From Planctomycetaceae bacterium (GTDB lineage: Bacteria > Planctomycetota > Planctomycetia > Pirellulales > Pirellulaceae): a stretch of 64,000 bases of DNA. Position 1 is the first letter of the stretch. Each line of letters opens with the position of its first letter. Both the position numbers and the translations under genes were made by a program. The notes under the pieces were generated by a model. It was given only the letters and a program-made list of their open reading frames with translations, was not told the DNA's origin and did no database searches. The stretch lies in NCBI GenBank assembly GCA_002724245.1, contig PBOG01000100.1:1-64000 (forward strand), written 5' to 3'. Shown in pieces: positions 39,698 through 58,642 of the stretch.

Positions 39698-42199
39698 TCA
39701 ATGATTGACCAGGAACTCACGGCTGTTCAACAAGGCCCAGAGAAGATCTTCCAGACCTTCACGGAAATCGGGAGCCCGGTTGAGGACTTGCTGGCATTCC
39801 AGGAGTTCATCGGCGGCAGGCAAGCGGCTGTAAGTCGCCAGATAGAGATGGTCAATTGCCTGTTTGGTGCTACCAGGCTGTTTCAGGTCTTTGTTTTCCA
39901 AGAGTTGTGCGATGCGACCCTGTTTATCAACGAGTTTGCGGCTGAGTAGTTCACCGTTGGCGATATGCAATATCTGCGCCAGGTTTGCGTCGGCGGTCCG
40001 TTCGCATTCACAGGCAATGGCGCGTTGTGGACGGCCCAGGGTATCGAGGAAGTAGGACTCGAAGTTCGGATCGGGAAGTTCGATTGCCCGGGTCCCTAAC
40101 GGGACCCCGTTGAATCGCTCGTGGGTGCCGCAGGCAGAATCGATCGCGTCCAGAAGCACTTCTGCGGGCAGGCGTTTGATATTGTAATGGGGGTAGAAGC
40201 GGCGATCGTAAGCGTTGTCGGGAACGGCCGTTGAGCTGAGTTGATAAACGCGCGAGGTCATGATCGTTCGCATCAACCTGCGAACATCGAACTTGACTTC
40301 GATCAGATGCGCGCCGAGCGCATCAAGCAGCTCGGGGTTGGAAGCCGGGTTGGTCGCACGCAAATCATCCACTGGCTCGACCAGCCCGGAACCCATGTAA
40401 TACGACCAGATGCGGTTGACGATGTTGCGGGCGAATAGATTGTTCTCTGGAGAAGTAAGCCAATCTGCCAGCGGGCGGCGCAAATCGCGGATCCCTGCGA
40501 CTTCGATAGGTTTGCCCAGCAGAGGTGTGGGAGCCATCGTCTTTCCCAGCCGGGGATGGGTGATCGATCCGGAACTGTTGAGTTGTACGATCGCATTACC
40601 CCCGAGCACGTCAAACTTGCTGTTATTCTTGGTGCCAACGCGGGTGAAGAAAGCAGCCAGACCGTAGTAATCGGACTGGCTATATGATTCATATGGATGA
40701 TGGTGACAGCGGGCGCATTGGATGCGGACACCGAGAAAGACTTGCGCCGTAGCCTCGGCGAGATCGGTTGGGGTGCGGGCGATACGATAAAAATTGGCCG
40801 GTCCGTTTTGCAGCGTCGATCCCTCAGCAGTAATGATCTCCCGGACAAATTGGTCAACGGGCATGTTTTCCCGCAGCGCTCGGCGGGTCCAGTTGAACAG
40901 GCTCCACATACCGGCGACACCCGTTTGTTTGCGATTGTTCCGTAGCAGATCACCCCACTTCAATGCCCAATAGCCACTCCAAGGTTCGACATACAGATCG
41001 CGATTAACATCGCCTGTAAGCCCCAGGAGTTCGTCGACCAGGTCATCGCGCTTGCGCGGATTGTCGGACTGGAGAAATGCCTGGACTGTTTTCGGCGCAG
41101 GGAGCGTACCGATGGCATCGAGAAACGCGCGACGTATAAATACCGCATCAGAACAAACCACTGTCGGCTGGATCCCCAGCCGTTTCCACCGAGCTTTGAC
41201 GTGTTCGTCGACAAAGGTCCTGGGCTGAAAACCGGCGAGATCAACCTGTTCCTTGAACGGGGACAGTACGTGGGAAATTTTGGCCTGTCCGGCATAGCGT
41301 ACCATCACAGCAATCTGCCCTTTGCCCACGCATGTGAGCCTGCCCGCTTCAGTCACTCTGGCAATCGCATCACTGAGACTGTCGTATTTGGCGGTGCGGG
41401 TCACATCTCTACTGCTGTGGTCACTGTAATGGGCGACAACACGTAGCTGCTGCTGCTGGCCAACGCGGTAGACGCGCTCTACTGGCGAGACGGTCAAATC
41501 GACAACTTCGGGCTCGTCGGGCTGCGGCGCAGGTGCACCGGCATTCAACCAGGCCGTGAGGACCTCGTGATCGTAAGAGTTTTTTGGGAATCGTTTACCA
41601 CCCTGATGAGCAAATTGCAGAAGTGCCTTGCGGAGCAGCAGGCTGTCGGCCGGCCTGACCAGGGAAATCCGTCTGCCCGGATGCTCGCGAACCAGTGATG
41701 CATAGTCTTGCTCTGGGGCAAAACCGAGCAACGAAAGCTTGAATCCCCCCTTCCCAAATTGCGCACCATGGCAGGCACCTTGATTGCAGCCGGTCCGGCT
41801 GAGAATGGGAAGCACATCTCGTTTAAAGCTGACTTGGGCCTGTGGCAAAATGTGGCTGATGGCGATCGGGATCTCTGCAGTCCGGTTCCCCTGGCGAACT
41901 CGAATGATTCCGGTACCGGAGGTGATCGGAACGATGGCCCCGCTCGTGGAGACCGACGCCAGACTGCCAGGTACCACCTCGTAATCCACATCTCGGGTGA
42001 GATCGACGCGCTGCGCTTGGGCGGTCTTGCCAGTCACCTGCAACTGCAACCGGGCTAGGTTTCCAACTAGATTTGCCTGTGGTGGATCAACATGCAGAGA
42101 GACAGCAGGATCGTTCGCACGGACAGCGCTTACCGTGGCCAGCGTCAGCCAGGTAATGCAGAGCAAGTAGCCGATACGAAACGGAGCTGTCCGATCCAT
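39698..42199 (-). CDS. Ig-like/DUF1549/DUF1553 surface cytochrome
   Basis: An 833-residue exported protein (signal MDRTAPFRIGYLLCITWLTL..., ending AVRA). Residues about 33-112 and 228-310 are bacterial Ig-like (BIG2-type) domains (VTGKTAQAQRVDLTRDVDYE, LRVVAHYSDHSSRDVTRTA). Between them lies the cytochrome region FKRDVLPILSRTGCNQGACH, with Cys138-x4-Cys143-His144, the extended heme site common in this branch. DUF1549 follows (HVKARWKRLGIQPTVV, FIRRAFLDAIGTLP), then CARCHHHPYESYSQSDYYGL near 498, and DUF1553 (NLFARNIVNRIWSYYMGSGLVEP, IMTSRVYQLSS). The usual partner is a DUF1501 gene; one lies divergently at 42481. Likely a surface electron-transfer/binding protein with unknown substrate. Confidence 0.9.
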   Translation of the reverse strand: MDRTAPFRIGYLLCITWLTLATVSAVRANDPAVSLHVDPPQANLVGNLARLQLQVTGKTAQAQRVDLTRDVDYEVVPGSLASVSTSGAIVPITSGTGIIRVRQGNRTAEIPIAISHILPQAQVSFKRDVLPILSRTGCNQGACHGAQFGKGGFKLSLLGFAPEQDYASLVREHPGRRISLVRPADSLLLRKALLQFAHQGGKRFPKNSYDHEVLTAWLNAGAPAPQPDEPEVVDLTVSPVERVYRVGQQQQLRVVAHYSDHSSRDVTRTAKYDSLSDAIARVTEAGRLTCVGKGQIAVMVRYAGQAKISHVLSPFKEQVDLAGFQPRTFVDEHVKARWKRLGIQPTVVCSDAVFIRRAFLDAIGTLPAPKTVQAFLQSDNPRKRDDLVDELLGLTGDVNRDLYVEPWSGYWALKWGDLLRNNRKQTGVAGMWSLFNWTRRALRENMPVDQFVREIITAEGSTLQNGPANFYRIARTPTDLAEATAQVFLGVRIQCARCHHHPYESYSQSDYYGLAAFFTRVGTKNNSKFDVLGGNAIVQLNSSGSITHPRLGKTMAPTPLLGKPIEVAGIRDLRRPLADWLTSPENNLFARNIVNRIWSYYMGSGLVEPVDDLRATNPASNPELLDALGAHLIEVKFDVRRLMRTIMTSRVYQLSSTAVPDNAYDRRFYPHYNIKRLPAEVLLDAIDSACGTHERFNGVPLGTRAIELPDPNFESYFLDTLGRPQRAIACECERTADANLAQILHIANGELLSRKLVDKQGRIAQLLENKDLKQPGSTKQAIDHLYLATYSRLPAADELLECQQVLNRAPDFREGLEDLLWALLNSREFLVNH

Positions 42200-42480
42200 A
42201 TAATCTCCCGTTCAGAATCGAAATGCGTCCTGCGATACGCTTCCGCTGGCCACGCAAAAAACGCTCATTAGTGACGACAATCCCCAATGACGTCTGTTAC
42301 GATGGTTGTTCAGCTTACTGGCTCAAACCCTGGTATTCAACGGAACCCGGCTACCGATTCTCTAAAGTTGGGTTTGCTGAAAAGTAAAATCCGGTCAAGC
42401 TTCGTTTTCTCAGAATCAATCAGCGGTCGGAGTGTTGTAGAACCTTTGGTCATTCGAATTGTCCGTGAGAGGTAAACGTC

Positions 42481-43809
42481 GTGCTGAATCTCTTTCCCCA
42501 GCGAATGCCTGACTGTGAATCGACTCGACGGAGCTTTCTGCTGCAAGTCGGTTCGCTGGGAGGACTCGGACTTTCCCTCGACACGTTCCTGCGCGCCGAG
42601 GCGCGCGCTGCGGCGAGCCACCGATCTACGATCAGCAATGCGAACTGCATTCTGATCTGGACACGGGGCGGAACCAGCCATCACGACAGCACCGACCCCA
42701 AGCCCGCCGCCAAAGCCGAAGTACGCGGCGAATTTGATGTGATTGACACCGCTTTGCCGGGAATCCAATTCACAGACAAGATGCCACACTTCGCCAGGCA
42801 TCTGAAAGAGTTTGCGGTCATGCGGAATCTCAACCCGCAAAATGCCGGTCACGGCATTGCCGATGCCATCATGATGTCGGGAAAAAAGCTGAACCCTTCT
42901 CTGACGTACCCCTGTTTCGGGTCCGTGCTGGCCAAAGAAAAAGGCGCACGCAGCAAATTGCCCCCGTTTATCCAGCTTGGAACCCAAGTGGATCGCGAAT
43001 TCGGTGGCGGTACTGCAGGTTACCTGGGGGTGGGTTACAACCCATTCGAAATTCCCGGTGACCCGAACAAGCAGGAGTTCACGGTGCGTGACGTAACGCT
43101 GCCGGGCGGCACAAGCCTGGCGCGACTCGGTCGCCGCCGCCAGGCGCTGGCCGCCATCGACCGACTACAGCGCGATGTCGAAAAGCAACCCAATACACTC
43201 AAGGCGATTGACGGCTACTACGAAAATGCTTTCAGCATGATCACGTCGCCGGCGACGCAACGCGCCTTTGACTTGCAAGCGGAAACGTCGCAAACACGCG
43301 ATCTTTATGGCCGGACGAGCATCGGTCAAAGTTGTTTGCTGGCCCGACGGTTGATCGAATCCGGCGCCCGCTTTGTGACAGTTTCCAGCCCGAGTTGGGA
43401 TACGCACGTCAACAATTTCTCGAGGTTGAAAAGTTTACTCCCGCCGCTGGATCAGGCGTTTCCCGCCCTGATTCTGGATCTCAAGACCCGCGGGCTCCTC
43501 GAGTCAACACTCGTCGTCTGGATGACCGACTTTGGCCGCACACCGCTGATCAATTCAGCCGCAGGGCGTGATCATTGGCCTTCAGCCGGACCGATTTGCT
43601 TTGCCGGTGCGGGTACTCCCACGGGAACAGTGATCGGGAAAACCGATGCCACAGGTGCGCGTCCGGTAGGCCAAGAGTATTATGCCAACGACGTGGCGGC
43701 CACCATCTACAGAAAACTGGGGATTCCGCTCGACACGTTACACGTCACTCCAGACGGGCGGCCGCTGCAAGTCTGCGACGGTCGCGTCATCCCACCATTG
43801 ATGGGCTAG
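42481..43809 (+). CDS. DUF1501 family exported protein (GTG start)
   Basis: A 442-residue DUF1501 protein. GAGAGG at 42467-42472 with eight-base spacing supports the GTG start. A Tat-like signal follows (ESTRRSFLLQVGSLGGLGLSL). Landmarks: NCILIWTRGGTSHHDSTDPKP, FAVMRNLNPQNAGHGIAD, LGVGYNPFEIPGDPNK, SCLLARRLIESGARFVTV, WDTHVNNFSRLK, VWMTDFGRTPLIN and GRDHWPSAGP. The WxTRGGxSHHDS variety typically pairs with the Ig-containing PSD1 cytochromes, one of which is encoded divergently 281 bases away. A PPC-domain gene follows 59 bases downstream on the same strand. Probable surface hydrolase-fold protein; reaction unknown. Confidence 0.9.
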   Translation: MLNLFPQRMPDCESTRRSFLLQVGSLGGLGLSLDTFLRAEARAAASHRSTISNANCILIWTRGGTSHHDSTDPKPAAKAEVRGEFDVIDTALPGIQFTDKMPHFARHLKEFAVMRNLNPQNAGHGIADAIMMSGKKLNPSLTYPCFGSVLAKEKGARSKLPPFIQLGTQVDREFGGGTAGYLGVGYNPFEIPGDPNKQEFTVRDVTLPGGTSLARLGRRRQALAAIDRLQRDVEKQPNTLKAIDGYYENAFSMITSPATQRAFDLQAETSQTRDLYGRTSIGQSCLLARRLIESGARFVTVSSPSWDTHVNNFSRLKSLLPPLDQAFPALILDLKTRGLLESTLVVWMTDFGRTPLINSAAGRDHWPSAGPICFAGAGTPTGTVIGKTDATGARPVGQEYYANDVAATIYRKLGIPLDTLHVTPDGRPLQVCDGRVIPPLMG

Positions 43810-47861: not shown

Positions 47862-48105
47862 GGTTCGATGACTGCTTTGCGGGTTCGAGAACTACGTGAC
47901 AGGTGTGTCTGGCAAGGACGGCTTCCCAGCGATCTTGGCAAAGCCACCATCATAACAAATACCCTAGTTCGGCCACTTGGGATCCCGTTCGCAAGGAGAA
48001 AAGTCCTTGAGTCGTGCGACCACTGTGGCGCACTGAACATGACACAACAGAGCGATTCAACCATCGGACTGGAATGACACAGGTCTTGATTCAAGCTGGC
48101 CCGGT

Positions 48106-48112
48106 AAGGAGG
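48106..48112 (+). promoter_or_regulatory. Consensus Shine-Dalgarno site
   Basis: AAGGAGG at 48106-48112 is nine bases from the ATG at 48122, the best ribosome-binding match seen in the window. It decides the start of the following dehydrogenase gene; a weaker site, GGAG at 48160-48163, is six bases from an inner ATG at 48170. Confidence 0.7.
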
Positions 48113-48121
48113 ATAACGACG

Positions 48122-51100
48122 ATGCCGTGTCCCAACGGTCCCGGTACGGAGAAACCGACGGAGTACAAAATGACCAAATCAGTCGCACTGCTCGGATCAG
48201 TGTTGCTCTTTTCAGTCGGAGCCTATGCCCAGCAAGTCAGCTCCAAAGCGCCACCGCGATCGCCCCAGGAGACGGTCAACAGTATGGAAATCCAGTCCGG
48301 CTATCGGATGGTGCCTGTCCTGGCGGAACCGCATATCCACGAACCCTCAGCGATTGCCTGGGACGGGAATGGCCGGATGTACGTGGTAGAGATGCGGACC
48401 TACATGCAGGACATCGATGGTCAGAACCAGTTTGCCCCAAAGAGCCGAGTGTCACGGCACGAAGATACGGATGGCGACGGAGTATATGACAAACACACCA
48501 TATTTGCCGACAAGTTAATCCTGCCGCGGATGGTACTACCGCTGCGCGACCGCGTGCTCATTCGTGAAACCAACACACTGGACCTCAAGAGCTACCAGGA
48601 TCTCGATGGGGATGGTGTGGCCGATCGCGTCGAACTGGTCCATCAAGGAGGACCACGGGGGGGCAATCTTGAGCATCAGCCCAGCGGCCTGATCTGGAAC
48701 GTCGACAACTGGCTGTACACGGCTATGTCACCATTTCGTTATCGGGTCACCTCAGGCAAGATTATTCGCGACCGGATGCCGGGTAGTTCTGGTCAATGGG
48801 GCCTGACCCACGACAACGTAGGACGGTTGTTCTATTCATTTGCGGGTGGCGAAAATCCGGTGGCCGATTTCCAGCGCCCGTTGGTCTACGGCCACCTGCG
48901 GCTACCCGGCGAACAGGCCCCCGGATTCCGCGAGGTCTTCCCGATCGACGATATCCCCGACACCCAGGGTGGCCGGGGCCGATTACGCGCCAACAACACC
49001 CTGAATCATTTTACCGCCAGCTGTGGCCAATCGATCTTTCGAGGGGACCGGCTGCCCCTCGATTTCCACGGAGACTTGATCATCTGCGAGCCGGTGGGAC
49101 GCTTGATACGACGGGCCAAAGTAACCAACGATCACGGCAAACTGGTCGTGTCCAATGCCTATGACCGACAGGAATTTATTGCGTCCCGGGATCCCAATTT
49201 TCGCCCGATCAACAGTGCCACCGGGCCCGACGGATGCCTCTACCTGGTAGACATGTACCGAGGGATTATCCAGGAGGGAAACTGGGTCCGCAGCGGCTCC
49301 TACCTGCGTGATATCGTCAAAGAGTACGAACTCGAAAAAAACATTGGCCGTGGACGTATTTACCGTGTCGAACACGAAACCACAAAACGCGGACGGCAGC
49401 CCAGGATGCTCGATGAGACGCCAGCCCAGCTCGTAGCCCATTTATCACATCCGAATGGCTGGTGGCGCAGCGAAGCCCAAAAACTGATCATCCTGCACGC
49501 AGATCTGAGCGTCGTGGACACGCTCCAGCAGCTGGCGGTCGCTGGCCGGGCGCCGCTGGGCCGGCTACACGCCTGGTGGACACTCGAGGGACTTAGTGCG
49601 ATTGACAGCAAGTTTCTGCAAGTCGGCTTCCGCGATCCTGACCCGCGAGTCCGGTCCGCGGTAATGCGGATCGCCGAGGTGTTCATTAACCAGGATCGTT
49701 CGCTGGATGGTGCCATTGAGCAACTCGCCCAGGACCAGGACCCTGATGTCGCGATTCAAGTTGTGTTGTCGAGTGGTCGCGGCGCGCATCCCCAGGCGCT
49801 GGCATTGGCAGATCACATCGTCAAGACGCATGACTCCAACCCCTCTGTTCGCGATCTGGCCAGGCAATTTCGATCGCGGATGGAAGCAATCCGTGCAGAA
49901 CGACTCCGCATCGAGGAATTGCGCCGGCGCAACAAGCTGCTCGCGGAATCGGTGGAACGTGGCCAATTGACTTACAGCACACTCTGTGTCAATTGTCACG
50001 GTCGCGACGGGAAGGGACGCCCCGCGCCCGATCGAAAAGAGATAATGCTGGCGCCAGCACTGGCGGGTTCGCCGCGCGTACTGGGGCACAAGGAACGATT
50101 GACACGAGTGCTCCTGCACGGATTGCTGGGGCCCATCGAAGGAAAAACCTACGCCGGCGGATTAATGCTGCCGATGCGACGTAACAGCGATCGTTGGATT
50201 GCCGACGTGGCAACATACATTCGCAATAGTTTTGGCAATTCGGCGTCATTGATTGAAGACGTTGACGTCAAACAGATTCGCTCCGCGGCCGCACCGCGCA
50301 ACGAACCCTGGACGTTAAGCGAACTGGCTCTCTACGATCCGCCACCGCTGACCAATCGCGCCGACTGGAAACTCGCCAGCAGTCACAATGCAAAAGCCCT
50401 GGCGTCTGCGATTGACGGCAAACCTGCTACCCGTTGGGATACGCAAGGGGTCCAGCGTCCGGGCATGTGGTTTCAAATCACGCTCCCCGAGCCGATGCGT
50501 ATCATGTCGCTGATCCTGGACACCCGGGGTTCCAACGACGATTACCCACGCGACTATCAGGTACACGCATCGGTGGATGGCAAAGAATGGGGACAACCGG
50601 TGGCCGCAGGTCGCGGTGACCTGCCCGTCACGCAGATCGAGCTGAATGCACCACAACCGGTCGCGCACATTCGCATCACGCAAACAGGTCAATCCCCGAA
50701 CAAGTACTGGTCGATTCATGAATTGACGATCAAGGGGCTCTCCCCACAAGCTGCGGCGCAAGCTGCGTTGTCATTGTCACAACGCCTGGCCGCAGAAAGT
50801 CCCACCGTCTTGGCGCAGCAGGCGCGCCAGCAAGGCAGTGCGGCGCGTGGCGCGGCCTTGTTCTTCAATCCCACGCAATCGTGCGCCAAATGCCATGAAC
50901 CGGATTCCGGAAAGCGCCTGGGGCCCGATCTCTCGTCCAAGCGGGAAGGCGTCAGTGATGTGTTCCTGGTGGATTCGGTACTGCGGCCGTCGCAGCACCT
51001 CCGCAAAGGCTTTGAACCCCTGGTGGTGGTGACCCTCGAGGGGCTGATCGTAACCGGCTTCCCCATTGCCGACGACGCAGACCGGGTCGTGTTGCGTGAG

Positions 51101-51334
51101 CCGGCTGCCGGTAAAGAAATCTCGATCGACAAGGAGGACATCGAAGAGACGCGCAAAGGGGTGACTTCACTCATGCCCGCCGGCCTGGCTAACCAATTGG
51201 CTGACCGCAACCAATTTCTCGACCTGGTCCGTTTCTTAATGGAAATCCACGAACAGGGTCCCGCCCGGCTGATGGAACTGAAGCAGGCAGCCAGTGCGAC
51301 AGTGCCCCCCTCCTCCCCTATGCCCAAGCGGTAA
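48122..51334 (+). CDS. PVC-type heme-binding membrane-bound dehydrogenase with discoidin domain
   Basis: Predicted 1070 residues from 48122 (1054 from 48170, where MTKSVALLGSVLLFSVGAYA gives the tighter signal peptide). The N-terminal half is the glucose/sorbosone-dehydrogenase-like propeller of the TIGR02604 type (HEPSAIAWDGNGRMYVVEMR, SATGPDGCLYLVDMYRG, RGRIYRVEHE). HEAT-like helices follow (about 440-600), then a cytochrome c site CVNCH at 622-626, an F5/8C discoidin-like domain at about 730-870 (ALASAIDGKPATRWDTQGVQ, PVAHIRITQTG), and a TIGR02603-type heme domain with CAKCH at 921-925. The protein should oxidise a sugar-like substrate in the periplasm and pass electrons through two c-hemes, with the discoidin domain binding glycan. 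Substrate unknown. Convergent with rhmD. Confidence 0.88.
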   Translation: MPCPNGPGTEKPTEYKMTKSVALLGSVLLFSVGAYAQQVSSKAPPRSPQETVNSMEIQSGYRMVPVLAEPHIHEPSAIAWDGNGRMYVVEMRTYMQDIDGQNQFAPKSRVSRHEDTDGDGVYDKHTIFADKLILPRMVLPLRDRVLIRETNTLDLKSYQDLDGDGVADRVELVHQGGPRGGNLEHQPSGLIWNVDNWLYTAMSPFRYRVTSGKIIRDRMPGSSGQWGLTHDNVGRLFYSFAGGENPVADFQRPLVYGHLRLPGEQAPGFREVFPIDDIPDTQGGRGRLRANNTLNHFTASCGQSIFRGDRLPLDFHGDLIICEPVGRLIRRAKVTNDHGKLVVSNAYDRQEFIASRDPNFRPINSATGPDGCLYLVDMYRGIIQEGNWVRSGSYLRDIVKEYELEKNIGRGRIYRVEHETTKRGRQPRMLDETPAQLVAHLSHPNGWWRSEAQKLIILHADLSVVDTLQQLAVAGRAPLGRLHAWWTLEGLSAIDSKFLQVGFRDPDPRVRSAVMRIAEVFINQDRSLDGAIEQLAQDQDPDVAIQVVLSSGRGAHPQALALADHIVKTHDSNPSVRDLARQFRSRMEAIRAERLRIEELRRRNKLLAESVERGQLTYSTLCVNCHGRDGKGRPAPDRKEIMLAPALAGSPRVLGHKERLTRVLLHGLLGPIEGKTYAGGLMLPMRRNSDRWIADVATYIRNSFGNSASLIEDVDVKQIRSAAAPRNEPWTLSELALYDPPPLTNRADWKLASSHNAKALASAIDGKPATRWDTQGVQRPGMWFQITLPEPMRIMSLILDTRGSNDDYPRDYQVHASVDGKEWGQPVAAGRGDLPVTQIELNAPQPVAHIRITQTGQSPNKYWSIHELTIKGLSPQAAAQAALSLSQRLAAESPTVLAQQARQQGSAARGAALFFNPTQSCAKCHEPDSGKRLGPDLSSKREGVSDVFLVDSVLRPSQHLRKGFEPLVVVTLEGLIVTGFPIADDADRVVLREPAAGKEISIDKEDIEETRKGVTSLMPAGLANQLADRNQFLDLVRFLMEIHEQGPARLMELKQAASATVPPSSPMPKR

Positions 51335-53110: not shown

Positions 53111-56100
53111 ATGAACAAACAGCTTCTGGCAATGAGCATCGTACTGCTGCTGGTCAGCAACCACTCGACGCAGGCAAACGATGTTTATCAAGTCGGGGTT
53201 TCGCGCGTCGATATTACGCCGGACTACGCTATTCGATTGAATGGATTCGGGAACCGGCGGCAGGAATCGGTCGGAGTTTCCCAGCACATTTACGCAAAAT
53301 CGCTGGCCATCTCCGAAACCGGTGACGCGGCGGCTCCACCTCTTGTTCTGGTCACACTCGACAGCCTGGGAATTCGACAAACGATGGTGGACGAAGTCGC
53401 CCGTCGATTGATGACCTCGCATCAATTGCCCGCTGCAAATCTCGTCGTCACGTTTACCCATTCGCACTGCACGCCGAAGGTGAATGGCGCAAGCGACAAC
53501 ATTTTCAGTGAACCTGTTCCTGCTGCACACCAGCAACACATCGATCGCTACACAAAAGAGCTCACTGATCGAATCACCCAGGTAGCGCAACAGGCGCTGG
53601 ACGCGATGAAGCCGGCGCACCTTGCGTGGGCAATTGGTACGGTAACGTTCGCCCAGAATCGCCGCAGCGCCAATGGTCCTGTTGACCATGATTTGCCAAT
53701 GCTCGTTGTGCGCGACACCAACACTTCCCAACCGCGGGCCGTCTATGTCTCTTATGGGTGTCATTGCGTCACGCTGTCGTTCAACCAGATTAGCGGAGAC
53801 TGGGCCGGGTATGCGGCGCAGATGATTGAGAGACAGTTTCCCGGCGCCGTGGCACTAGTCTCCATCGGAGCGGGTTCAGACCAGAATCCTGCTTCCGGCG
53901 TAACCGGCGACAAAGTCGAGGTGGCGGCTTCCCAGGGTCTGCAAATTGCTGCCGAAGTCCAGCGTCTGCTGGCAGGTGAACTCAAACCAATTAGTGGTCC
54001 TCCTCGAGCGGTACGCCGTCAGATTGCCCTGCCATTAGAGACCCCGCCCACCCGGGAACAACTGGTCGCCCAATCCAAGGCGGGTGGAGCGCATGGCTAC
54101 AACGCGCTGACACAATTACAGCGCCTCGATGGTGGCCAGCCGCTGATCAAGGAAGTCGACTACCGAATTCAAACCTGGACGTTTGGCGACAGCTTGTGCA
54201 TGACCTTCCTGGCGGGTGAAGTCTGTGTCGATTATGCCCACCGACTCAAACTGGAACTGAACCGCGAACGATTCTGGCTCAACGCCTACAGTAACGATTT
54301 TGGTTGCTACATTCCGTCTGAGCGTTTACTGGCAGAAGGGGGTTACGGCGGCGGCGCGGAAATGCCTTATTTCGCCTTGCCGTCGATTTTCCAGAGTGGC
54401 CTGGAACAAAAAATTGTGGACGAAGTCCAAAGTCAGGTGCCGGAGTCCTTTCATGTTCCCGCGGGCACGCAAGGCGTACCCGCCAAATCACCACAGGATT
54501 CCCTGCGCTGCATGCAGACCGCACCCAATCTACGAATCGTGCTGGCCGCTGCGGAACCCGACGTCAAGGATCCAGTCGCCATTGACTTTGGTCCGGACGG
54601 ACGCCTGTGGGTCGCCGAAATGAACGACTACGGGCACGACGTGTATGCATCATTTCCTCCGACCAGTCGCGTGCGCTGGCTCCGCGACACCGATGCGGAC
54701 GGTTACTTCGAAACGGCTGGAACATTCCTCGAGGGGCTACGCTTTCCGACCGACGTCAAAGTCTGGCGGGATGGACTGTTGATCTGTGACGCCCCCGACA
54801 TCTTGTGGGCTCGTGACCGAGACGCGGATGGCAAGGCAGACCAGGTCGATACGTTGTTCACCGGGTTCGAAGTCAGAAATGCCCAGGCCCGCGTCAACAG
54901 CCTGCGTTTCGGTCTGGACAACTGGATTTACGGGGCCGGGGGACTGTTCGGAGGCGAGATTACCAGCACCAGGACAGGCGAAACCGTCGACTGCCGCAAC
55001 CGCGACTTTAGACTCAACCCGGACACCGGTGTGATTCAAGCAGTCAGCGGCCGTACACAACAAGGCCGCTGCCGGAACGACTGGGGCGACTGGTTTGGTT
55101 GTTCAAACGGTGCCCTGCTTACCCCGATTGCTGCCGATGACGACTATCAACGCCGAAACCCGGATGCCGTGCTCGCTCCCTTTCACGTTTTCTCCACAAA
55201 TGCTGAAGCCCTGCGACTGTATCCACCCGACGATCTGGTGACGTTTGAGCTATCCGGAGCACCAGGCCGCGCCACTGCAGCCTGCGGGATCGGCATCTAC
55301 CGGGATGTAGCGCTGGGAGACGATTTTCAGAACGACGCATTCACCTGCGAACCGGTCCACCAGGCCGTCCATCGGATCGATTTTCAAGCTAGCCACGACA
55401 CCTTTATTGGCCGACGCGGTGTTGGTGAGAAATCTCGTGAATTTCTCAGCTCTACCGATCGCTGGTTCCGGCCCGTTCAAGTTCGCACCGGCCCCGATGG
55501 TGCGCTCTGGATCGTGGATATGTACCGTTATGTGATCGAGCACTCGCGCTGGATCCCACAGTCCAGCCTGAACGATCTTGACATTTACGCGGGCCAGGGT
55601 CGCGGCCGTATCTACCGGATACTTCCCCGGCAAAGTCAAGAACCACCAACACCGCAACCAGTGATCCCCAATCTAACTGCCTTGACCGACGCGCAACTTG
55701 CTACAGCTATTGACTCCTCGAATGGGACAACCCGTGATCTTGCGCATCAACTGCTGCTCTGGCGGCAGGCTAAGAATGTAGCACCCGACCTGCGGCACGT
55801 GGCAATCGATTCGCAACTGTCGGCTGCTCGTATCCAGGCGCTCGCAGCATTAGACGGACTGGGTAAACTAACTCCCGACGACATAAATCGGGCGCTGCAA
55901 TCACAGCGCGCCGAGGTCCAGCGGTTTGCCGTGAAGTTGAGCGAGCCCTGGCTGAATGAGACCCCTGCACTGCGCGCCGCGGTGGTCCAGCTGACCGCCA
56001 CCGAGAGCTTACGACTGCGCCGACAAGTCGCCCTGTCGCTGGGTGCCAGTACCCAGGCAGATGCCGCCCGCGCCATCGCCAGGCTACTCAGTAGCCAACA

Positions 56101-58642
56101 GGACCACCGAGTCCGCAGTGCCGCGTTCCATTCCGCCTCGACGGGCAACCTGCGGCAGGTTGTACAGGGCTTCAGGCTTCTGCCGACCCAGCAGCAATCA
56201 CTGCGTACCTGGCACCAGCTACTGGAAACCACGGCCCGGGCAGCGGACGCGACGACCGTTCGTGACGTTGTCATCACACACCTTCCCGACATGCACACGC
56301 TCACCCAGGTGAAAGACGCGGTGCCCTGGACACTCGTCTTGAATGCCCTTGACGCACGGGCAACATCGAACGGATTTGTAGAGACAATTGGAGGCGCTCC
56401 GAAAACAGAACACGTTTTTCGCGCCGCGCTGACGACGCTCCAGGACTCCACCCGCGAGGAGCCCGAATACCGCGCCGCTTTCTCACTACTGGGACGCGCC
56501 TTTGGGCCCTATTCCCAGCGGATCCTTTCCCACATGGACGACCGGAAGCATTTTTCGGCATCAAGGCGAGCTGCCGCGCTGGTCGATTTCGTATCGCCCC
56601 GTTTTTCCCTGTCGCTGCAGCAAGCCGCAGTGGCTGCCGTCACATCAACAACCGCTGCGGACGCGCCGGAGCTACTACTGGGTACCTATGCCTCACTGAG
56701 CGGACTGGTGCGGGTTGAGGTACTCGATGCGTTGCTCAGCCAGCGCGGTGGGCCAACAGCACTGCTGTCGGCAATAGACAGACAAATCGTACGTGCCGAC
56801 CACCTGAATGTCAGCCAACGTAACAAGTTGCTGGGCAATGGCGCAGCCACTGTGCGTGACACTGCAGCACGGCTGCTGGGTGCGACCAACAAGTCAAGTC
56901 GCAGTGCCATCGTCACCGCACATCTGCCGGCAACCAGGCTAGCGGGGTCCATTGATCAAGGGCGTCTGGTGTTCCGCAAACGCTGTGCCTCCTGTCATCG
57001 CCTGGAAGATCACGGGCACGTGGTCGGTCCAGACCTCGCCGCGCTCACCAATCGCGATCCTCAGTGGTTACTGACCACAATTCTGGACCCCAACAAGGAG
57101 GTCGATGCGCGGTATCTCGCGTGGACCGCAATCACCCACAGAGGCCGAACCATGACCGGGATGATTGTTGAAGAAACCGCGACCACCATCCGTCTGCGCG
57201 AGGCGGGTGGAAAAGAACATCTCATCAAGCGTAACGAGCTCGATCGATTCCAGTCGTCGCGCAAGTCCGTCATGCCCGAGGGTCTCGAACGCGAACTGTC
57301 ACAACAAGATTTGAGTGATGTGATCGCCTACCTGACAAGCTTCGTTTCTCCCCCCAAAACATTCTCCGGGAATATGCCGCAGCTGGTCGCGCCCGAGGGT
57401 TCAGGGGTCTTCCGCCTCACTGCCGCCACAGCAGAAATCCGCGGTACCCATATTCGGTTTGAATCCCCTTATGACAATATCGGCTACTGGCACCATCAAA
57501 CCGACACGGTCACATGGCGCGTGGACGTGGCGCAGTCCGGTCGGTTTGACGTCTATCTGAATGCATCCTGTGACGATCAGGCCGCAGGCAACTCTTTCCG
57601 GATTGAGGGAATGGCAGAAGTCATTACGGGAAAAGTCGACAGTACAGGCGGCTGGCAACACTACCGCCAGTACCGGACAGGCACCGCGCAGCTGACTGCC
57701 GGACGCCATGTGATTACCGTCCGCGCTGCGGCGCCCATTCAGCGCGCCTTGTTCGATCTACGCGAGCTACAACTGGTACCTGTCGGACAAAAGCCCAACT
57801 TCCCCAGGACCAGCTCGCGGCAAACCGCGCTGCCGCGCCGGGCACATCAAATCGCACCCTTCCTGCTCGATGATGCGCAACCGACCGACCGGCGGCAGCA
57901 GGTCATCGACCAGCGGCCCGGACTGGGCCCAGCCATCATCAGTCAACTCGTCTCCGATCTCGATGCGGGGGATACCATCGACGAATACCGACGCATTCCC
58001 TGGATCTGGCGAGTTGCCATCGCGGTTGCCAGGCGTGACGACGGTGGCGAGATCCGCGACGTCCTGGAAATGGCGGTCCCATCCGCCAGCGAACCACTGC
58101 GCGACTGGCAAGCTGTGGTACTGGGTGGTGGACTCATCAATGGAGCCACGCAAATTGGCGTCTGGCCGAACAAACGACTCAACGAAATTCTGGTCGGTCT
58201 GCCTGCAGTAAAAGCTACCTGGCCAGAAACGCTGCAAAAGTCCGTGCGCATGTCTGAAAATCCGCGCATCCGCACAGGTACACGTTACGACGCGCTGCGT
58301 ATGGTTGCCTTGCTGGATCCGTCACAAGCGATTCCACACTTGCAAAAATATCTTGGCCCAAAGACACCAACCGAACTCCAGATGGGCGCGGTCAGCGGCC
58401 TGGTTGATGTCGAGTCACCGGATTCCACCCAGTTACTGATCGGTGCCCTGTCTTATCTGGCAGGCCGTAATCGTCAGCTCGCTCTGGAAGGACTGTTGCG
58501 CACCGAGCTGCGCAGTGACGCACTGGCAAAGCACATCAAATCAGGGCAGCTGACGCTCACCGAAAACGAATTCCTGACCTTGCGCAATCACCCGCTGGCA
58601 ACCGTTCGTAAACACTTCGAGGCGCTGGATATCCAGAAATAG
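53111..58642 (+). CDS. Giant fusion: ceramidase-like / PVC dehydrogenase / HEAT / cytochrome c / CBM
   Basis: A 1843-residue exported protein; the start at 53111 opens a signal peptide (MNKQLLAMSIVLLLVSNHST). Residues about 22-440 resemble the neutral/alkaline ceramidase N-terminal domain (VGVSRVDITPDYAIRLNGF, TFTHSHCTPKVNG, SYGCHCVTLSF, GAGSDQNP), with histidines able to bind metal. Residues about 465-836 are a PVC-type dehydrogenase propeller (VAIDFGPDGRLWVAEMND, RTGPDGALWIVDMYR, GRGRIYRI). HEAT-like helices run to about 1270. A TIGR02603-type heme domain has CASCH at 1292-1296, with ILDPNKEVDARY and VMPEGLERELSQQDLSDVIAYL. A CBM6-like jelly-roll covers about 1432-1556, and the last 290 residues are again HEAT-like. 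One continuous frame with no break. Suggests cleavage and oxidation of a glycolipid-like substrate in one chain. Confidence 0.85.
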   Translation: MNKQLLAMSIVLLLVSNHSTQANDVYQVGVSRVDITPDYAIRLNGFGNRRQESVGVSQHIYAKSLAISETGDAAAPPLVLVTLDSLGIRQTMVDEVARRLMTSHQLPAANLVVTFTHSHCTPKVNGASDNIFSEPVPAAHQQHIDRYTKELTDRITQVAQQALDAMKPAHLAWAIGTVTFAQNRRSANGPVDHDLPMLVVRDTNTSQPRAVYVSYGCHCVTLSFNQISGDWAGYAAQMIERQFPGAVALVSIGAGSDQNPASGVTGDKVEVAASQGLQIAAEVQRLLAGELKPISGPPRAVRRQIALPLETPPTREQLVAQSKAGGAHGYNALTQLQRLDGGQPLIKEVDYRIQTWTFGDSLCMTFLAGEVCVDYAHRLKLELNRERFWLNAYSNDFGCYIPSERLLAEGGYGGGAEMPYFALPSIFQSGLEQKIVDEVQSQVPESFHVPAGTQGVPAKSPQDSLRCMQTAPNLRIVLAAAEPDVKDPVAIDFGPDGRLWVAEMNDYGHDVYASFPPTSRVRWLRDTDADGYFETAGTFLEGLRFPTDVKVWRDGLLICDAPDILWARDRDADGKADQVDTLFTGFEVRNAQARVNSLRFGLDNWIYGAGGLFGGEITSTRTGETVDCRNRDFRLNPDTGVIQAVSGRTQQGRCRNDWGDWFGCSNGALLTPIAADDDYQRRNPDAVLAPFHVFSTNAEALRLYPPDDLVTFELSGAPGRATAACGIGIYRDVALGDDFQNDAFTCEPVHQAVHRIDFQASHDTFIGRRGVGEKSREFLSSTDRWFRPVQVRTGPDGALWIVDMYRYVIEHSRWIPQSSLNDLDIYAGQGRGRIYRILPRQSQEPPTPQPVIPNLTALTDAQLATAIDSSNGTTRDLAHQLLLWRQAKNVAPDLRHVAIDSQLSAARIQALAALDGLGKLTPDDINRALQSQRAEVQRFAVKLSEPWLNETPALRAAVVQLTATESLRLRRQVALSLGASTQADAARAIARLLSSQQDHRVRSAAFHSASTGNLRQVVQGFRLLPTQQQSLRTWHQLLETTARAADATTVRDVVITHLPDMHTLTQVKDAVPWTLVLNALDARATSNGFVETIGGAPKTEHVFRAALTTLQDSTREEPEYRAAFSLLGRAFGPYSQRILSHMDDRKHFSASRRAAALVDFVSPRFSLSLQQAAVAAVTSTTAADAPELLLGTYASLSGLVRVEVLDALLSQRGGPTALLSAIDRQIVRADHLNVSQRNKLLGNGAATVRDTAARLLGATNKSSRSAIVTAHLPATRLAGSIDQGRLVFRKRCASCHRLEDHGHVVGPDLAALTNRDPQWLLTTILDPNKEVDARYLAWTAITHRGRTMTGMIVEETATTIRLREAGGKEHLIKRNELDRFQSSRKSVMPEGLERELSQQDLSDVIAYLTSFVSPPKTFSGNMPQLVAPEGSGVFRLTAATAEIRGTHIRFESPYDNIGYWHHQTDTVTWRVDVAQSGRFDVYLNASCDDQAAGNSFRIEGMAEVITGKVDSTGGWQHYRQYRTGTAQLTAGRHVITVRAAAPIQRALFDLRELQLVPVGQKPNFPRTSSRQTALPRRAHQIAPFLLDDAQPTDRRQQVIDQRPGLGPAIISQLVSDLDAGDTIDEYRRIPWIWRVAIAVARRDDGGEIRDVLEMAVPSASEPLRDWQAVVLGGGLINGATQIGVWPNKRLNEILVGLPAVKATWPETLQKSVRMSENPRIRTGTRYDALRMVALLDPSQAIPHLQKYLGPKTPTELQMGAVSGLVDVESPDSTQLLIGALSYLAGRNRQLALEGLLRTELRSDALAKHIKSGQLTLTENEFLTLRNHPLATVRKHFEALDIQK

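Follow-up and report, generated by a model that had tools for sequence, protein, structure and literature searches.

A secreted planctomycete protein joining a serine-free, ceramidase-fold zinc domain to a sugar-dehydrogenase-like propeller and a c-type haem domain

The Locus and Its Reading Frame

Within the window, the 64,000-nucleotide stretch of DNA analyzed here, positions 53111..58642 of the plus strand hold a gene for a secreted multidomain protein of 1843 aa, which is read in a single frame without interruption from an ATG at 53111 to a stop at 58640-58642 and displays a uniform GC3 (0.61-0.65) across the whole ORF. Searches of the Pfam and NCBIfam profile libraries with curated cut-offs, together with two AlphaFold models that cover the whole chain except the signal peptide, give the following layout from N- to C-terminus: a signal peptide (MNKQLLAMSIVLLLVSNHSTQA/ND; 53111..53179, plus strand; a hydrophobic stretch judged by eye), a neutral-ceramidase-like domain (aa 21-450), a DUF7133/TIGR02604 propeller (aa 460-840), HEAT repeats, a TIGR02603 haem domain, a CBM6-like jelly roll, and a second HEAT block. 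The model of aa 21-875 has a pLDDT of 90 and a pTM of 0.79; that of aa 871-1843 has a pLDDT of 89 and a pTM of 0.46, so the arrangement of its domains is unsure. The open frame and the profile calls thus bear out the single frame and the domain order that the initial annotation had read from the letters alone. A full-length homologue with 83% identity is found in a genome of the same genus (L009/L049).

A separate, divergent second DUF7133 gene (48014..51334, plus strand), which lies outside the fusion and encodes a DUF7133, cytochrome c, and F5/8C protein of 1106 aa, is located 1.8 kb upstream on the same strand, and its counterpart is likewise upstream in the same-genus L049. Elsewhere in the window (39698-43809), a PSCyt2/PSD1 (DUF1549/DUF1553) gene with Big_2 domains adjoins a DUF1501 gene. 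An upstream enolase-superfamily (MR_MLE) gene was considered as a sign of a sugar-lactone-aldonic acid-dehydratase route; this candidate was rejected because about 43 fusion loci show no conserved neighbor.

The Zinc Domain

The neutral-ceramidase-like zinc-hydrolase domain (aa 21-450; 53171..54460, plus strand) is assigned from PF04734, from a profile compared with 2zws and 4wgk, from an alignment with bona fide ceramidases, and from a fold match. Ceramidase_alk (PF04734) matches aa 26-244 above its cut-off (E 1e-17), with coverage limited to profile positions 1-231 of 509, so the ceramidase-like N-terminus that had been proposed for residues 22-440 does have its profile match. A 35-domain profile extends the similarity to the PDB entry 2zws (6.8e-23), a further, weak segment of alignment covering the region of the distal Glu and Tyr, and neutral ceramidases (2zxc, 2zws, 4wgk) head the Foldseek results for the model of aa 21-875, with E of about 1e-26 to 2e-26.

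In common with the neutral/alkaline ceramidases (PF04734; 2zws/2zxc from P. aeruginosa and 4wgk from human), the domain has the fold, the His/His/Glu/Tyr zinc ligands, the second His of THxH, and a conserved Tyr near the site. By alignment, the zinc ligands are H117, H218, E370, and Y400, full-length numbering being the domain numbering (H97, H198, E350, and Y380) plus 20, and they align with H97, H204, E411, and Y448 of the P. aeruginosa ceramidase (2zws), the zinc ligands of that enzyme. In the 35-domain profile, H97, H99, H204, E411, Y448, and Y460 of 2zws each align with a residue that is invariant or almost so. The four ligands, along with H99 and Y392 (domain numbering), do not vary among 46 fusions and 22 other domains, save for one truncated row that is missing its beginning; in a second set, all 78 loci have the four ligands.

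The fusion differs from neutral ceramidases in carrying Asn for Ser, in having no PF17048 domain, and in its attached redox unit. The position of Ser274 of 2zws, the nucleophile of that enzyme, is occupied here by N259; Asn is found at this position in 46 of 46 aligned fusions, in 15 of the 22 other domains (the remainder having Gly in six and Asp in one), and in 77 of the 78 loci of the second set (Asp in one). The resulting motif is ADxNP or SDxNP, versus GDxS[PA] in the bona fide ceramidases of the phylum (n = 6, with PF17048), which have the zinc residues in common and Ser in 6/6. PF17048, the ceramidase C-terminal domain, is present in three of 199 genomes of the phylum and was not found in this one, the propeller taking the next place in the chain, and in a tree of zinc domains a long branch separates the family from bona fide ceramidases. 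The label "ceramidase" in the initial annotation therefore holds for fold and zinc site and fails at the Ser nucleophile (Asn259) and the absent PF17048. Judged by its aligned residues, the family is one of predicted ceramidase-fold zinc hydrolases without the serine, for which the name "ceramidase" is not justified, and the same label is probably mistaken for many annotated Planctomycetota proteins that match PF04734 but have no Ser.

The Propeller

The propeller (aa 460-840; 54488..55630, plus strand), whose predicted fold is like that of PQQ sugar dehydrogenases, is assigned from profiles and a fold match, with DUF7133 at 460-840 (6.7e-129) and TIGR02604 at 474-840 (7.8e-72). In the fold search, PQQ sugar dehydrogenases and an AA12 pyranose dehydrogenase follow the ceramidases, and it is from these matches that six blades are assigned, the GSDH entries reaching a TM of only about 0.45-0.56 by target length; a search of the PDB with the propeller profile returned noise only. 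With the soluble PQQ sugar dehydrogenases (GSDH, PF07995; 2ism, 3a9g, 1c9u, and 3das) and CAZy AA12 (6jt5 and 6h7t), the propeller has the predicted fold and an FGxDG..Y strand motif in common, whereas it departs from them at the catalytic-His position, which is Ala or Gly in the fusion clade. Relatives of GSDH carry an invariant HNGGxxxFGPDG motif, the His of which is the catalytic base in soluble glucose dehydrogenase. The DUF7133 subfamily has an ungapped equivalent, [H/A]RVN[GS]LRxGLD, in which the H-x6-[FWY]G spacing is kept, and by this spacing the position corresponds to A593 here, an equivalence to be read in light of a weak profile-profile alignment to GSDH (hhalign probability 20%, E 0.0012) that places a gap at the site.

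Ala or Gly occupies this position in 39 of 47 aligned fusion rows and in 74 of the 78 loci of the second set (Trp in one, His in three). The change marks the main fusion clade, whereas every NodB-fused sister examined retains His, as do the basal ceramidase-type fusions; among other DUF7133 proteins of this genome, His is frequent at the position, though not universal. The propeller is nonetheless 88% identical to that of the same-genus homologue and has many invariant columns. A PqqC gene is present in this genome (G000:C65:9163-9819) and in only two of the 30 genomes searched, the 28 without it including a one-contig genome that bears the fusion (G008). Thus, the "dehydrogenase" of the initial annotation is retained as a PQQ-sugar-dehydrogenase-like predicted fold but does not extend to the catalytic-His position of GSDH, here Ala593.

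The Haem Domain, HEAT Blocks, and CBM6

The first HEAT-repeat block (aa 870-1275; 55718..56935, plus strand) is all-helical in the model, and its HEAT_2 match (927-1008) falls just under the cut-off, at 27.3 bits versus 27.7. It is followed by the TIGR02603 c-type haem domain (aa 1280-1410; 56948..57340, plus strand; E 2.1e-34), recognized by profile and alignment, in which CASCH lies at exactly 1292-1296, as initially annotated, and M1388 is the distal ligand. The CxxCH motif is invariant across 37 rows. PVC bacteria possess dozens of TIGR02604/TIGR02603 proteins per genome, and the C-terminal part of the fusion is a standard member of these PVC-type haem-binding CxxCH proteins (TIGR02604/DUF7133, HEAT, and TIGR02603): TIGR02604 and TIGR02603 both score above their curated cut-offs and in order, with CxxCH plus distal Met present. 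The fusion differs from standard members by a 430-residue zinc-hydrolase domain in front. The fold search with the haem domain returned Kustd1711 (7zs0), a diheme cytochrome c that is its closest solved relative; M1388 aligns with M292 of Kustd1711, a distal haem ligand there. With calcium, the Kustd1711 haems have potentials of about +350 mV; the protein is an electron carrier without propeller or hydrolase (PMC11791136).

The CBM6-like jelly roll (aa 1413-1570; 57347..57820, plus strand) combines a weak CBM_6 match (1461-1555; 22.9 bits, under the cut-off of 28.9) with a model fold that matches 2cdo, 2cdp, and 1uxz, the CBM6 modules of agarase and lichenase, at a TMt of 0.68-0.75 (2cdp up to 0.75). 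The haem part of the initial annotation was correct, and its CBM part probably so, the CBM6 fold being supported by the AlphaFold model. A C-terminal HEAT-like helical block (aa 1571-1843; 57821..58639, plus strand), seen in the model, completes the chain; it occurs in many homologues, albeit not all, and CBM6 is missing in several. Fold searches with the HEAT blocks returned karyopherins, and matches of the model of aa 871-1843 to insecticidal crystal proteins were dismissed as helical/jelly-roll noise.

Distribution and Module Exchange

Of the 298 genomes of the class, 162 have matches to a junction-spanning query (E <= 1e-60), and in about 112 of the 298, by a hand count of listed rows, a single alignment runs through the junction in an uninterrupted frame. 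In a second collection of named genomes, which partly overlaps the first (some contigs being the same records), one frame spans both domains in 78 of the 80 best loci. The titles include Planctomycetaceae, Pirellulaceae, Gemmataceae, Singulisphaera, and Gimesia, with about 25 labeled as Verrucomicrobia or its members, although titles of metagenome-assembled genomes may mislabel, and the isolate Singulisphaera sp. GP187 is on the named-genome list. That an assembly artefact or a missed stop near residue 450, which the initial annotation had named as a refuting case, joins two genes here is refuted by the same open junction in so many independent genomes and retains virtually no probability; no support for it was found. 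The fusion is conserved rather than accidental: it is genuine, it occurs often among planctomycetes and their relatives, and, with its junction open in many genomes, it is therefore old and no assembly error.

Ceramidase-like and cytochrome-dehydrogenase proteins had been described as usually separate genes, which is half right, as this propeller subfamily habitually bears N-terminal hydrolase-like modules. In the propeller tree, all propellers of the ceramidase and NodB types fall into a single group (53 rows, SH-aLRT 99) apart from the genome's other propellers, and the modules exchanged in front of them are ceramidase-like, NodB-like, both together, or nucleoside-hydrolase-like. In this same genome (L048:836-6079, contig C34), a NodB-like deacetylase and FG-GAP replace the zinc domain and His is kept at the GSDH position; such sisters are recognized by profile in L048 and L056 and by propeller tree and length in L057-L060. 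The NodB-like and zinc domains occur together in L100, L103, and, without FG-GAP, L101, giant triple fusions of 2061-2423 aa that run polysaccharide-deacetylase-like, (FG-GAP), ceramidase-like, DUF7133, HEAT, haem, and CBM6. Other variants comprise a nucleoside-hydrolase-like (IU_nuc_hydro) domain preceding the ceramidase-like/propeller fusion (L110:6431-12304) and a 2204-aa fusion in which the second HEAT block is followed by rhodanese domains at the C-terminus (L102:5129-11740). An alpha/beta hydrolase (glucuronoyl-esterase-like) precedes a propeller outside the 53-row group (L053).

The zinc domain is also found apart from DUF7133. A 995-aa protein of this genome (L054:8476-11460, contig C117) joins an FG-GAP propeller to a ceramidase-like domain with no DUF7133 propeller, a pairing present by similarity in L055, and a second ceramidase-like gene (461 aa) comes directly after it in L054. 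In the zinc-domain tree the fusions cluster, with several changes, and a solo zinc domain (L064), with no propeller on its 11.6-kb contig, is nested among them, which suggests that the zinc domain works alone. Some stand-alone zinc domains adjoin genes for sulfatase, 3-keto-disaccharide hydrolase, Gfo/Idh/MocA, or Fe-ADH, and others have nothing informative beside them. Linkage of split orthologues was also considered: among about 20 loci with a stand-alone zinc domain, only two (L052 and L053) have a propeller gene nearby, not clearly above the estimated chance expectation of about 1.3, given that DUF7133 genes number about 33 in this genome by our own count (about 33 propeller genes per 7.8 Mb).

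Proposed Function and Alternatives

Because both enzyme halves are missing the catalytic residues of the enzymes that they resemble, this giant exported protein probably belongs neither with true ceramidases nor with ordinary sugar dehydrogenases. As predicted from sequence and models, a CBM6-like module, a zinc hydrolase with an intact zinc site, a propeller, and a His/Met haem are united in one exported chain. The reading tentatively favored, at somewhat less than an even chance, is that the protein is secreted, binds a glycan, and attacks a substituent of a carbohydrate through its zinc hydrolase, which is tied to a redox/haem unit. CBM6 would hold the protein on a polysaccharide or oligosaccharide while the zinc domain cleaves an acyl, amide, or lactone bond of the carbohydrate, with zinc-activated water in place of Ser; the propeller-haem unit would oxidize the same or a derived sugar, and the haem would pass single electrons to periplasmic acceptors. 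In the main clade, loss of the usual His base may have altered the propeller chemistry, or the propeller may only present substrate or haem. A glycan substrate is consistent with the sugar-directed activities of most swapped N-terminal modules with the carbohydrate genes beside some stand-alone relatives, and with the action of one purified TIGR02604-HEAT-TIGR02603 protein on lactose (PMC5342196); speaking against the favored reading as a whole are the Ser-to-Asn and His-to-Ala changes, the scarcity of PqqC, the unconserved neighbors, a CBM6 that is below cut-off and patchy, and the lack of clear linkage between stand-alone zinc domains and propeller genes.

The main rival, a possible though less probable reading, is that the zinc hydrolase alone is catalytic, the propeller being an inert scaffold or substrate platform and the haem domain only transferring or storing electrons. 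The Ala or Gly of most fusions at a position where sisters and basal fusions keep His, the absence of PqqC from most relatives, and the lone zinc domain of L064, placed by the tree within the fusions, all argue for it; on the other hand, other DUF7133 proteins are also without His there, so the change may not mean lost activity, and, since the haem ligands are invariant and the propeller is well conserved, redox function seems still to be selected for, also in those propellers that no longer have His. A glycosidase-like propeller unit, with the zinc domain stripping blocking substituents, is a doubtful alternative. Its precedent is Lac161_ORF7 (AGW45552), a Chthoniobacter-like metagenomic beta-galactosidase which has TIGR02604, HEAT, and TIGR02603 in common with the fusion, compared by described architecture, and which, when purified, hydrolyzed lactose in vitro with a Km of 1.8 mM (PMC5342196). 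This is, however, one report on one protein, likened by architecture rather than sequence and described with no ceramidase-like domain; the fold match here is to sugar dehydrogenases, and plain hydrolysis would give the conserved haem no role.

Still less probable, indeed very unlikely, is the proposal of the initial annotation that a ceramidase or glycolipid amidase is coupled to oxidation of the released part. Fold and zinc site are as in neutral ceramidases, but the Ser nucleophile is missing in all domains checked, PF17048 is absent from the genome and rare in the phylum, the family stands on its long branch, and the partner domains are of carbohydrate type. Ceramide is accordingly an unlikely substrate, and nothing points to a glycolipid. 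A coupling of cleavage to oxidation as such is possible because the zinc and haem ligands are strictly conserved in the alignments.

Outlook

Planctomycete-type cytochrome domains combined with CBMs are already known, with no function assigned (PMC5615132), and Planctomycetota are on record as carrying AA12-like CAZymes (PMC11131199). A literature search, with most subscription journals and preprints outside its scope, found no work joining ceramidase, planctomycetes, and haem-binding, and none on DUF7133. The swapping of hydrolase modules before one redox unit offers a handle on the substrate of TIGR02604/TIGR02603 proteins, whose role is a long-standing question. At its boldest, the interpretation is a long shot: the fusions would be a widespread class of exported PVC mega-enzymes, each pairing a zinc hydrolase of ceramidase fold, devoid of the serine, with a haem and a non-canonical propeller oxidoreductase that has no His and possibly no PQQ, such that de-acylation or ring-opening of glycan substituents would be wired directly to single-electron oxidation. 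If true, this wired hydrolase-oxidoreductase would constitute a route of oxidative polysaccharide breakdown outside the catalogued CAZyme families.
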